Program-made: the position numbers and the translations under genes
Notes under the pieces: model-generated
The model's input: only the letters and a program-made list of their open reading frames with translations
Told to the model about the DNA's origin: nothing
The model's database searches: none
Source of the DNA: Candidatus Aphodousia faecipullorum
Lineage (GTDB): Bacteria; Pseudomonadota; Gammaproteobacteria; Burkholderiales; Burkholderiaceae_F
Assembly (NCBI GenBank): GCA_018714205.1
Contig: DVNR01000053.1
Location: 1 to 64,000, forward strand
Direction of reading: 5' to 3'
DNA length: 64,000 nucleotides
Part shown: positions 45,927 through 51,179 of the stretch, piece after piece
Numbering within the stretch: position 1 is the first letter of the stretch
Layout: the number at the start of each line of letters is the position of its first letter

Positions 45927-45950
45927 AAAACTTTTGCCAGCAAAAGTTTT
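45927..45950. repeat. 24-bp palindrome AAAACTTTTGC-CA-GCAAAAGTTTT at ATPase 3' end
   Basis: 11-bp perfect arms; near-identical palindrome at 47103..47126. Confidence 0.85.
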
Positions 45951-47026
45951 CAATTTAACTTGGACAGAATCCAATACTTGAAAAACGGATCTTCAATTTC
46001 GTAGGTGTCCGTTTTTATTAAATAACCCGACTTGAGCATCCTCGTTGCGGTTGAGTACGTCGTGCTGGCGGCGTAGCCATCCTTGCTGGAAAGTTTTCCA
46101 ATGAGGGTCAGATCGCGCAGGATGCGGCGCTCATTTTTATTAAAGCCCGTCCAAAGCCGCTCAAAATCCAAATCATGAACGGCGATCAATTGATTCATGG
46201 CGGACTGAACTACCCCGCTTTCCTTGTCAAGCTTTTTATATTTCAAAAGATCCCATACCGTCGCAGCCAATTGCTGCGTGTAGTAAGGATGACAGTTGGT
46301 GATTGTCAAAATTTCTTCAGCCAGTGTCTCGGCATCGTGACAAACGGTATCAAGACCGTTTTTAATATAGTTTTTAAAGTCATCAAAAGGAATCTTCTTT
46401 AAGTGCATCAGTTGGCCGAAATGATAAAAGGGGGACTTCACCTTTTCGAAGATGCCGCTCATCATGCTTTCCTGACTGCCCAAGAAAACGTAATTAACCC
46501 GAGTCTGTTCCTGCATAATGGCCCGAAGCTTCTTATCAATCCCCTTTTCCAACTCCAAAATTTCTTGAAATTCATCAAAGACCACAATAAGACGTTCTGT
46601 CTCCGTGCTCACCGTTTCAATGAGCCCCAGCGCGTCTTCCAATAAAACATTTGAATCCGCATTGGGATTAAATGAAATATCCATGCCGTTTGTGATGGGA
46701 TTTAGGGATATCATCGGGACAATGCGAAAGTGCTTCAAGAAGCTTTTAATTCTTTCCAAAGGATACTGTTTAAGCGTTTCTTTGACGATGAGCCCGGCAA
46801 GATCCGTGGCACTGACCGCTTTTTGAACATTGATAAATATAAAGGGACGCTTGAGCGTTTGAACGACCTTCAGTATCAAGCTGGTTTTGCCGAATCGACG
46901 CGGACTGATCAAGATAAGATGGTTAGGCGATTGAAGTGTTTGCTTGATTGTCTCTAGTTCGTCCTTGCGATCCGTAAAGTACGGTTCTTGAACGATTGTT
47001 CCGTATTTAAAAGGATTGGTTGCCAT
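45950..47026 (-). CDS. ATPase_2-type AAA ATP-binding protein with C-terminal winged-helix-like region
   Basis: 358 aa; LILISPRRFGKTSLI Walker A, RLIVVFDEFQEI Walker B. Confidence 0.8.
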   Translation of the reverse strand: MATNPFKYGTIVQEPYFTDRKDELETIKQTLQSPNHLILISPRRFGKTSLILKVVQTLKRPFIFINVQKAVSATDLAGLIVKETLKQYPLERIKSFLKHFRIVPMISLNPITNGMDISFNPNADSNVLLEDALGLIETVSTETERLIVVFDEFQEILELEKGIDKKLRAIMQEQTRVNYVFLGSQESMMSGIFEKVKSPFYHFGQLMHLKKIPFDDFKNYIKNGLDTVCHDAETLAEEILTITNCHPYYTQQLAATVWDLLKYKKLDKESGVVQSAMNQLIAVHDLDFERLWTGFNKNERRILRDLTLIGKLSSKDGYAASTTYSTATRMLKSGYLIKTDTYEIEDPFFKYWILSKLN

Positions 47027-47034
47027 ATCGAGAA

Positions 47035-47073
47035 TTTGCGTAACGTAAAAATACGTAATGAATATTACGCAAA
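47035..47073. promoter_or_regulatory. Inverted-repeat array (TTTGCGTAA..TTACGCAAA with internal CGTAA/TACGTA) immediately upstream of the ATPase ATG
   Basis: 9-bp perfect arms, 21-bp spacer, starting 9 bp from the start codon. Confidence 0.45.
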
Positions 47074-47102
47074 AATAGAGAATTACACAATAAAAGCAGA
47101 TA

Positions 47103-47126
47103 AAAACTTTTGCCGGCTAAAGTTTT
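47103..47126. repeat. 24-bp palindrome AAAACTTTTGCCGGCTAAAGTTTT
   Basis: Matches 45927..45950 at 22 of 24 positions; one mismatched pair in the stem. Confidence 0.85.
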
Positions 47127-47166
47127 GGACTTTGAAGCTCCCTTGTATGAATACGAAGGATTCACT

Positions 47167-48141
47167 TTAACCAATAAAAAACTTTTTGGGCGGAGTTACT
47201 TTCGCAACGCCTGGCCTAACGTCGCTTTTGGCACAAAGTGTTCGCGATAGACCTCTTTTCCGCCCCATCGGCCTTTTGGCCTCCGGACTCGTGAGTCTCA
47301 GATATTCTGTCGAAGCTCCTCGATCGTTACGAAGTTCATGTCGGCACAGACCGCTATCGCTCAACAGCGCTTCCGCAGTCACCCACTTGCTTAACAAGAG
47401 GGGTCGGTCATGCCCTTTTTCCGTCACATGGCCCGCCAAGAACTCCGACATCACATCCCGCTGAACAAGGATGTCAGTCTCGCCCCAGCGATGCCATCGC
47501 TCCTTCAACGCTTTCTTTCGGTACGTGTCCGTTGCCGGATCGTATTGCGACAATTTCAGCTCATAGGCATTCAATTCAATCACTTGACTTACAGGGGGGG
47601 GCATGCCCTCCAAACAGATCGGCGAAAACCAGCACGTCTTGTCGTTGAGCGTCCGACAAACTATTCGTCAATCCTTAATGCGTTTGGTTCGAGTCGGCAC
47701 GGTAGGATCGGCCAAGGCCTCCTTGAAGTAAGACGTGTCGAGAATGATGAGTTTCAAGACCTGTTTGCGCCAAACAATCGCTTGGCGTTCCAACACTCGC
47801 CAAACGGTACGTCCGATACACTGGGCTTCGTGAGCTCCTATGTCGTTGCGGCCGCTGGCCTTGCGGTGGTTATTCGCTATTGTTCTTAAACCGTTTTCGG
47901 TTAAACCATAAGCTTTTTGCAAATCGGAAAAGTGTTTACTGCGCTCTTTGCCTTTGGGCATAGAGCGTGCTTGACGCCATGACAGACTCTCCCGCATTCG
48001 TTGGAGCCTGCCTAAAGCGGAGCCGAGCGTGGCGTTATACAACGTCAGACCAAACTCAAACACCTGTCTGAAAAAACGATTCTGTTGATCGTTCACACAC
48101 AGCGGCAACTCGATGACAAATGTGGGAGTGTTCGATTTCAT
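47167..48141 (-). pseudogene. IS200/IS605 OrfB/TnpB-like transposase remnant (in-frame stop, apparently missing central region)
   Basis: FGLTLYNATLGSALGRLQRMRESLSWRQARSMPKGKERSKHFSDLQKAYGLTENGLRTIA resembles an OrfB N-terminus; LSQYDPATDTYRKKALKERWHRWG..VQRDVMSEFLA resembles the C-terminal zinc-ribbon region; both in the same frame, separated by TGA at 47668..47670. Confidence 0.7.
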
Positions 48142-48497
48142 GATCTTATCCTAGCCGACATTCACACCAAACGCCCTATCCGCTGACTCAAGTCAGGGAT
48201 TTGCTGCGCTGGCTTTCTATCAACGAACTGAACATTCCAAACTTAAAAGACCACCACTCCGTAAAAGTAACACGTTCCATTCAAAAAGAAATACCCTCAA
48301 GTTCAACGAAAATCCCTTGCTTTGGTGGATTTTTTCCTTCGGTTACTTCAAAATAACGCCTAGCATATTTTTGGATATGCTCCCGAAAAATAGCGAAAAT
48401 CCTCATCAAACGATCCGCACGATAGGGACTGGCTTTATCGGGTTGCGTATATTCGATGCCCTTCCTGTTGGCATCAAGTTTTTGGGAATGAAAGATT

Positions 48498-48998
48498 ATG
48501 GCTTCAGTCAATAAAGTCATCATTATTGGTAATTTGGGAAGAGACCCGGATACCCGTTACACGGCCGAAGGCGGTACGGCAATCACCACTATCACGGTGG
48601 CCACTTCTCGTCGTTATAAGGACTCAAACGGTCAGCCACAAGAAGAAACGGAATGGCACCGAGTTGTTTTCTTCGGTCGTCAGGCTGAAATCGCCGCTGA
48701 ATACCTGCGTAAGGGGCGCCCTGTTTATGTGGAAGGTCGTTTGCGTACTCGCAAGTGGCAGGGACCGGATGGACAAGATCGCTACTCAACGGAAATTATT
48801 GCCGAATCCATGCAAATGCTTGGCTCTCGTGAACGAACTGATGCGCCTGCTGGCGGTTTTGAATCAGCGCCGCGTCGTCCGGCTCCGGCCCATTCTGAAC
48901 ATGCTCCGGCCTCAAATTATCAACAACGTCATACCGAATCCATCCCTTCTCCGGTTGGCGGCAGCTTGGATAACTTAGACGAGGATATTCCTTTCTAA
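48498..48998 (+). CDS. ssb: Single-stranded DNA-binding protein
   Basis: [42 protein letters not shown]; acidic tail LDEDIPF. Confidence 0.97.
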
Positions 48999-49070: not shown

Positions 49071-49225
49071 CATATCAGCGCCATTTGCCTTGATTTGTTT
49101 CCATCTATAAAGCGCTCTATACTTGAGACTAACTAGCTATCTAACTGTTTTTAAAAACCCTTGGGATAATACAAAAAAATAACGACCGCAATTCTGGCAA
49201 TTTAGTCGTTTTTTAAGATAAAATG

Positions 49226-49250
49226 GCGGGTTAATGTGTTTTTAACCCGC
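49226..49250 (+). promoter_or_regulatory. Leader hairpin GCGGGTTAA-TGTGTTT-TTAACCCGC
   Basis: 9-bp perfect stem upstream of the leader ORF; no U-tract follows. Confidence 0.5.
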
Positions 49251-49269
49251 AAGGGTCATGGTGAAATTT

Positions 49270-49362
49270 ATGTTTTCCTTCGTACATGCTCGAGCACGAC
49301 GCGAACGAGCCGCTTTATACAAAGCGACGGGGGATGTATTTTTTAACGGCAATCCTTTTTAA
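49270..49362 (+). CDS. Putative leader peptide MFSFVHARARRERAALYKATGDVFFNGNPF (alternative in-frame ATG at 49258)
   Basis: 30-codon ORF with GGTG six bases before ATG; TAA stop lies inside the terminator hairpin preceding the operon. Confidence 0.55.
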   Translation: MFSFVHARARRERAALYKATGDVFFNGNPF

Positions 49363-49379
49363 GGATTGCCGTTTTTTTA
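49345..49379 (+). terminator. Intrinsic terminator, candidate attenuator of the amidohydrolase/OPRT operon
   Basis: AACGGCAATCCTT-TTT-AAGGATTGCCGTT followed by TTTTT, about 40 bp before the operon's first CDS. Confidence 0.8.
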
Positions 49380-49416
49380 AACCGTTTTGTTATTAACCAA
49401 CCTTAGAGAGAGAGCA

Positions 49417-50427
49417 ATGAACGCAACACCGAATACCGTCCGTGCCATGTTGGAGCCGATGATTAAGGCCAACGGTGGCTGGGTCAATACGCATGCTCAC
49501 GCTGATCGTTCCTTCACGTTGAGCCCTGAGATTATGGAGATGCGTCGAACCTGTACGTTGCAACAAAAATGGGATGCCTTGGACCGTCTCAAACGGGAGT
49601 CGACCGTTGAGGATTTTTACGCCCGCTTCTCGACCATGTTTGAACTCATGATCAGCCAAGGTGTTACAGGGCTTTGCACGTTTGTTGATATTGACCCGCA
49701 AAGTGAAGATCGAGCCATCATTGCCGGCATGAAGGCTCGTGAGCATTACAAAGATCAGATCACCGTAAAATTTGCCAACCAAACACTAAAAGGTGTGATT
49801 GAGCCAGAAGCACGCAAATGGTTTGATATCGGTGCGGAACTTGTTGACATCATTGGCGCCTTGCCGAAACGTGATGAACGGGACTATGGCAAAGCCGACG
49901 AAGCATGGAACATCATCATGGGCACTGCCAAAGAGCAAGGCAAGATGGTACACGCCCACGTTGACCAATTTAACCAGGCTGTGGAATATGAAACTGAACA
50001 AATGTGCTTGAAGACCATCGAATTTGGTCTTCAAGGTCGTGTGGTCGGCGTTCATGGGATCTCCATTGCTGCTCACTCCAAAAAATATCGTCAACGCCTT
50101 TATGAACTGATGCGTGAAGCCGGTGTGATGATGATCGCTTGCCCGACTGCCTGGATTGACACACCGCGTACCGAAGCTGTGGGGCCCTTGCACAACTCCA
50201 TGACCCCGGTGGATGAATTGGTCCCTGCTGGTGTCCGAGTCGCAATTGGTGTTGATAACGTGGCTGATGCCATGGTGCCTTGGAACGGCGGTGACATGTG
50301 GCATGAACTGACGCTCATGGCAACTGGTTGTCGCTATGACCAATTTGAAGATTTAGTAGAAATTGCCACACGTAATGGTCGTATGGCCCTCGGTATTGAA
50401 CCGTACGCTCCGTTAGCCAAGAAATAA
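49417..50427 (+). CDS. Amidohydrolase family protein, cytosine-deaminase (CodA)-like
   Basis: GGWVNTHAHADRSFTL, MVHAHVDQFN, VVGVHGISIAAHSK, IGVDNVADAMVPWNGGDMWHELTLM; start after AGAGAGAG. Confidence 0.82.
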   Translation: MNATPNTVRAMLEPMIKANGGWVNTHAHADRSFTLSPEIMEMRRTCTLQQKWDALDRLKRESTVEDFYARFSTMFELMISQGVTGLCTFVDIDPQSEDRAIIAGMKAREHYKDQITVKFANQTLKGVIEPEARKWFDIGAELVDIIGALPKRDERDYGKADEAWNIIMGTAKEQGKMVHAHVDQFNQAVEYETEQMCLKTIEFGLQGRVVGVHGISIAAHSKKYRQRLYELMREAGVMMIACPTAWIDTPRTEAVGPLHNSMTPVDELVPAGVRVAIGVDNVADAMVPWNGGDMWHELTLMATGCRYDQFEDLVEIATRNGRMALGIEPYAPLAKK

Positions 50428-50444: not shown

Positions 50445-51116
50445 ATGCCATCTATGCTTGCTGAAAACATTCTGATCGAAAACCTGCTCTCGTTAAACGC
50501 AGTGGCTTTCTTAACCGAAGAACCGCTTCGTTTGAAGTCCGGTCTGGTCACGCCGATTTATGTCGATAACCGCAAACTAATCACCCATCCAGACGCCTGG
50601 CACGATGTCATTGAAACCATGGCTTCGTTGATTGATGCCTGGGGTTTGAAGTATGACATGATCGCCGGGGTGGATGCCGGTGGCTTAACCCATAGCGCCG
50701 CCTTGGCCTACCGTTTAAATTGTCCGATGATTTATGTGCGTCAACGTGCCAAGACCTACGGCGATCTCGACCGCATCGAAGGCGGTAGCGTCAAAGGCTT
50801 GCGAGTGTTGATCATTGAAGACCATATCTCGACCGGCTTGTCTTGCCTTGACGCCATCAAAACATTGCGAGAAGAGGGAGCCATCGTCACCGATTGCGTC
50901 AGCATCACAAACTTTGACATGAGCGAAACAGCCGAACTCTTTAAAGACGCTGGCATCCAGGCTCATCGCATGATTGAATTCAAGCGCATTGTCGCAAAAG
51001 CCGTGACGATGGGAGTAATTTCCGAAGAACAACAAGCCGTCATTGAAGAATGGCTGAAGACCCCGTGGACGTGGGCGGCTCGCCGTGGATTAATTGCAAC
51101 GACACGTGAAAATTAA
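50445..51116 (+). CDS. Orotate phosphoribosyltransferase-like protein
   Basis: LKSGLVTPIYVDNRKLITHPDAW, MIAGVDAGGLTHSAALAYRL, VLIIEDHISTGLSCLDAI PRPP-binding-like motif. Confidence 0.82.
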   Translation: MPSMLAENILIENLLSLNAVAFLTEEPLRLKSGLVTPIYVDNRKLITHPDAWHDVIETMASLIDAWGLKYDMIAGVDAGGLTHSAALAYRLNCPMIYVRQRAKTYGDLDRIEGGSVKGLRVLIIEDHISTGLSCLDAIKTLREEGAIVTDCVSITNFDMSETAELFKDAGIQAHRMIEFKRIVAKAVTMGVISEEQQAVIEEWLKTPWTWAARRGLIATTREN

Positions 51117-51141
51117 TTCCTAAACCACACTTTAAAAGGGA

Positions 51142-51170
51142 ACCGCGTCAATTCGCTGACGCGGTTTTTT
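51142..51170 (+). terminator. Rho-independent terminator after the OPRT-like gene
   Basis: ACCGCGTCA-ATTCGC-TGACGCGGT followed by TTTTT. Confidence 0.8.
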
Positions 51171-51179
51171 GTTCATTTT

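Follow-up and report, generated by a model that had tools for sequence, protein, structure and literature searches.

Candidate pyrBI/pyrE-type transcription attenuation upstream of PRK06886 in Candidatus Aphodousia and its relatives

Known attenuators and the layout of the locus

In the pyrBI operon of Escherichia coli, the terminator sits within the leader gene (PMC4824070), and the pyrL terminator is kept from forming by a ribosome closely coupled to the RNA polymerase (PMC5021804). Ribosomes close to a terminator thus act as its repressors (PMC4824070; PMC5021804). Amino-acid attenuators place the terminator more than 20 bp past the leader stop, out of reach of a ribosome standing there (PMC4824070). 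No description of a comparable attenuator in Burkholderiales was found in the open-access literature. The locus analyzed here lies on a 64,000-nucleotide stretch of DNA (the window) from the draft genome of Candidatus Aphodousia faecipullorum (1.81 Mb, 88.6% complete), whose near relatives include Candidatus Aphodousia gallistercoris and Parasutterella secunda. After ssb, the plus strand carries a promoter-like site, the leader region, a PRK06886 gene (49417-50427), an orotate phosphoribosyltransferase (OPRT)-like gene (50445-51116) and an operon-end terminator found by terminator scan (51137-51176). Between uvrA and ssb, which are adjacent in L001, positions 45950-48523 look like an insertion when the translations are read by eye, with fragments resembling transposases and an ATPase-like ORF of 358 aa.

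According to our analysis, the leader region is probably a transcription attenuator of the pyrBI/pyrE type that is coupled to leader translation, and the U-tract, the gene content and the analogy with E. coli make UTP its likely signal. That leader translation suppresses the terminator as in pyrBI and pyrE was the central idea of the initial annotation, and it is well supported by comparative anatomy. From this anatomy and its recurrence in relatives, we infer a promoter, translation of the leader, polymerase pausing and coupling. RNA polymerase would start near 49232, transcribe a leader ORF of 33 codons and reach a structured region and, beyond it, a U-tract (49339-49344) that directly precedes an intrinsic terminator (49345-49379). 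If UTP is scarce, the polymerase would be slow in the U-tract and the ribosome on the leader would catch up and cover the ascending terminator arm, letting transcription run on into PRK06886 and the OPRT gene. If UTP is plentiful, the polymerase would be away before the ribosome comes, the hairpin would form and transcription would end.

Leader ORF, terminator and promoter

The terminator consists of a 13-bp stem (49345-49357 and 49361-49373) with a 3-nt loop (49358-49360) and a T tail (TTTTTTAAA), is encoded on the plus strand and overlaps the end of the leader ORF. It had been annotated about 40 bp upstream of the first gene, and we measured 43 bp from the stem to the ATG at 49417. Region 49220-49420 has a folding z of -4.3. 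The terminator scan returned seven terminator-like sites in 2.4 kb versus 2.7 expected, and on its own it is little proof. The proposed check of stem conservation gave a positive result, as the stem is nearly invariant within the genus and shows one compensatory change from C-G to U-A among seven relatives. Such terminators are almost absent from the other pyr genes of the genus, where no credible attenuator was found besides one terminator-like site that ends 137 nt upstream of an ATCase match (L097).

The leader ORF (49261-49362, plus strand) comprises 33 codons and a TAA, and likely starts at the GTG at 49261, since the same place is GTG in most close relatives. The two other possible starts, ATG 49270 and the in-frame ATG 49258, both exist as annotated, with the GTG being the likelier choice. 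A Shine-Dalgarno-like AAGGG (49251-49255, plus strand) was recognized in the sequence and has counterparts in most of the relatives within the genus. The stop codon (49360-49362) lies inside the terminator as originally described, with its T at the end of the loop and its two A residues at the start of the descending arm, outside the ascending arm. In dinucleotide shuffles of the window leader, an equally long ATG/GTG ORF enters the stem with a chance of 35%, which speaks for another reading, in which the ORF overlaps a constitutive partial terminator by chance, the leader transcript ending there is a by-product or small RNA, and the promoter sets expression. The leader ORF is indeed not significant from one genome, and its significance comes from conservation across relatives. 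Among four relatives, the ORF frame shows a pS of 0.39 above a pN of 0.22 and zero indels, while the other frames do so less or not at all.

Matching positions in relatives point to a promoter-like pair on the plus strand at 49194-49224, made up of CTGGCA (49194-49199), a 19-nt spacer and TAAAAT (49219-49224). Its equivalent in relatives is CTGG.. followed by TAAGAT or TATGAT directly 5' of GGCGGGTTAAT. The -10/-35 match of the window is weak, and a sigma-70 consensus scan of the region did not pick up the pair. The conserved -10 box TAAAAT places the predicted transcription start at about 49231-49233, so that the left arm of a 9-bp inverted repeat straddling it (49226-49250) is probably mostly untranscribed. 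This repeat had been annotated as a hairpin that could belong to the control region. The inverted repeat is present, but a conserved RNA control element is unsupported, as its pairing is partly lost in several of seven relatives with no compensatory changes, and it probably does not form a full RNA hairpin.

Recurrence of the layout in related genera

PRK06886 homologs were gathered across genomes and their upstream regions compared. At all 23 examined loci with a terminator, window included, the leader ORF extends to or through the terminator stem, and the proposed check on conservation of the ORF and its stop position thus found the layout kept. The carriers are five genera of one family, namely the genus of the window (nine sequences), g7, g14, g15 and g17, and a second family (L010, L011, L089 and L090). 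Altogether about ten diverged lineages share the layout, and their peptides are largely unrelated between genera. The distance from ORF start to stem is 66-110 nt across these loci and 88 nt in E. coli pyrL. The ORF stops just at the stem in L013, L020 and L089, stops in or near the loop in the window, L014-L018 and L022, and runs past the terminator up to the next gene in L009, L024 and L036. In L010, L011 and L089, a second hairpin with a T-run precedes the leader ORF, right where transcription is predicted to start, and is a possible tandem attenuator.

The element is not obligatory, since g3 and g16 have the same genes without it. The PRK06886 genes of g3 show neither terminator nor leader ORF. 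Those of g16 lack the leader ORF as well but have a terminator-like hairpin at the promoter, which may point to a different control; at several of the loci L025-L034 and L039, a hairpin such as GTCAATTTAGCCGCG...CGCGGCTTTTTC comes right after the promoter.

At nine of nine loci in g7, g14, g15 and g17 (L021, L022, L024, L009, L036, L049, L050, L052 and L053), a TAnnnT hexamer precedes the leader ATG by 7-8 nt (background 3.1%). Five of the nine also have an extended TGn, and a Shine-Dalgarno-like motif before the ATG is absent from all of them. Transcripts of these sister genera therefore probably begin at or beside the leader AUG, as leaderless mRNA. No leaderless leader peptides were found described in the open-access literature. 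If this is true, a coupling attenuator would operate at such loci without any ribosome binding site. Since the promoter fixes the ORF start, it can fairly be asked whether the ORF stays open up to the stem, and eight of eight such ORFs do (product of shuffle chances 1.3e-4, with sister loci not independent). Promoter-fixed starts, a frame kept without indels and an ORF-terminator overlap found across lineages whose peptides are unrelated all argue against a chance ORF at a constitutive terminator, which we regard as unlikely.

Translation-coupled attenuation further involves a candidate UTP-sensitive pause site, and the sequence UUUUUU (49339-49344, plus strand) could serve as such. The initial annotation correctly placed GTA TTT TTT (49336-49344) just before the stem, and a T-tract is found in the matching place in all relatives of the genus and in most other lineages. 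An initial profile of the distance from hairpin to U-tract had no clear peak, blurred by extended helices, and a core-hairpin analysis of the 75 nt before the terminator was used instead. In 8 of 15 lineages, versus 1.8 expected, a gap of 9-13 nt separates the end of the strongest simple hairpin from the first UUU (P ~1e-4, the range having been picked after seeing the data), and the other seven lineages miss this spacing. The E. coli controls gave 10 nt for pyrBI and 9 nt for pyrE. In the window, the hairpin 49311-49326 ends 12 nt before the U-tract, and is weak and no stronger than in shuffles (p = 0.67).

Around this hairpin, RNAalifold and pair counts indicate a leader RNA stem on the plus strand (49276-49282 with 49328-49334), immediately 5' of the U-tract. 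Two-sided changes occur in 6 of 11 pairs, and covariation is 0.463 versus 0.325 in shuffles (reached in 0 of 500), with the structure taken from the consensus of the same sequences, which are related and only seven in number; slid versions of the stem reach at most 0.234. A role of this structure in pausing would be a guess, and mutations in E. coli pyrL gave no support for a hairpin-stabilized pause (PMC9291695). The covarying stem would also suit a ligand- or protein-binding, riboswitch-like element (49276-49334) that controls the terminator. An Rfam scan returned tRNAs only and no match in the leader, and in RNAalifold on seven relatives the ascending terminator arm had no conserved alternative partner, although part of this arm can pair with the AAGGG region when the descending arm is removed from the window RNA. 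Sister genera with the same ORF-terminator layout moreover share neither the structure nor the sequence, and we consider such an element very unlikely.

The window leader is rich in arginine and an R-x-R-x-x-R-A pattern recurs in the genus, which would fit arginine attenuation, with stalling on leader Arg codons switching between antiterminator and terminator. The leader has no runs of Arg codons, however, and its Arg content is lost in L020, L024 and L036. That no conserved alternative partner of the ascending arm was seen also counts against this switch, as does a leader stop that overlaps the terminator instead of preceding it by more than 20 bp (PMC4824070), and we give arginine very little credence as the signal. 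Searches with PF08052 (PyrBI leader peptide) gave no match to the leaders of the window and three sisters at E <= 10, with the E. coli pyrL control matching at 3e-34, and the leader peptides had no Pfam match.

Pyrimidine genes and comparison with known attenuators

PRK06886 (NF005365, 468.7 bits, cut-off 340) is encoded on the plus strand, is labelled only 'hypothetical protein' in NCBIfam and is predicted to be a dihydroorotase-like amidohydrolase related to CodA and AtzC. We take His214 and Glu217 of CodA to form its HxxE motif, with Glu217 being catalytic. The position of this Glu is Gln (HxxQ) in 41 of 41 PRK06886 homologs, and an identity as CodA cytosine deaminase was rejected because the catalytic HxxE is missing. 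The original label of a CodA-like deaminase thus captured a resemblance to CodA and AtzC in a protein without the catalytic Glu of CodA. The OPRT-like gene on the same strand (PF00156 Pribosyltran; TIGR00336, 97 bits, cut-off 106.8) is OPRT-type in sequence, below the NCBIfam cut-offs, with OPRTs as the nearest solved structures. It is the only OPRT found in the window assembly and lies beside PRK06886 in nine of nine genomes of the genus, seven of which have a standard pyrE as well; no standard pyrE was found in the window genome and G004, both less than 90% complete. The window assembly and two relatives that are 98% complete (G002 and G008) gave no ATCase match.

In the second family, the leader and terminator are followed by PRK06886, a DHODH-like gene, OPRT and PyrF, the DHODH being different from that of the window genome. 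In a comparison of 67 genomes of the family, a full-length PRK06886 is missing from all 18 that have PyrC above the cut-off, and PyrC above the cut-off is missing from all 40 that have PRK06886 (six g16 genomes have sub-threshold relatives), a split that tracks genus lines and represents few independent events. A PyrC-dimer type was not found in the genus. Replacement of the dihydroorotase by PRK06886 is the simplest reading of this pattern and our prediction, which flags PRK06886 as a candidate for the missing enzyme. The operon looks less like salvage than like de novo pyrimidine synthesis, since PRK06886 occurs with DHODH, OPRT and PyrF elsewhere and its distribution is complementary to that of the standard dihydroorotase. 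The earlier reading as deaminase/OPRT salvage is probably mistaken, given the missing CodA Glu, these neighbors and the restriction of PRK06886 to genomes without standard PyrC. Replacement dihydroorotases of this kind were not found described in the open-access literature. We tentatively posit, with more doubt than confidence, the combination of PRK06886 as an unrecognized replacement dihydroorotase under pyrBI-type UTP control and a sensing ORF that is translated leaderless from its own AUG in the sister genera.

With attenuators of the his/trp/leu type, the locus shares a leader peptide and a premature terminator. Unlike them, the window has no regulatory codon run, conserved antiterminator or gap of more than 20 bp between stop and terminator, and neither a codon run nor such an early stop was seen in the leaders examined. 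All leaders found here instead have the pyrBI placement, with stops from the stem start to beyond the stem. With E. coli pyrBI, the window shares an ORF start 84-88 nt before the terminator, a terminator inside or overlapping the ORF, a hairpin followed after 10-12 nt by a U-tract, and pyrimidine genes downstream, here the OPRT-like gene and the operon of the second family with enzyme activities inferred from sequence. The leaders are without sequence similarity, the first gene differs, and the U-tract, a putative pause site, abuts the terminator in the window whereas it lies 28 nt before the terminator in pyrL.

In this last respect the window resembles E. coli pyrE (rph-pyrE), where the U-tract also stands against the terminator stem (GATTTTT-stem, compared with GTATTTTTT-stem in the window) and a translated ORF lies near or at the terminator. 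The pyrE leader is the end of the rph gene, whereas the window has a short ORF dedicated to this role. The locus would extend UTP-type coupling attenuation beyond E. coli, where it is known, to Parasutterella-type Betaproteobacteria with unrelated leaders. The recurring geometry of an ORF start about 85-110 nt before the stem, a hairpin, about 10 nt, a U-tract and a terminator in the ORF would indicate which features matter.
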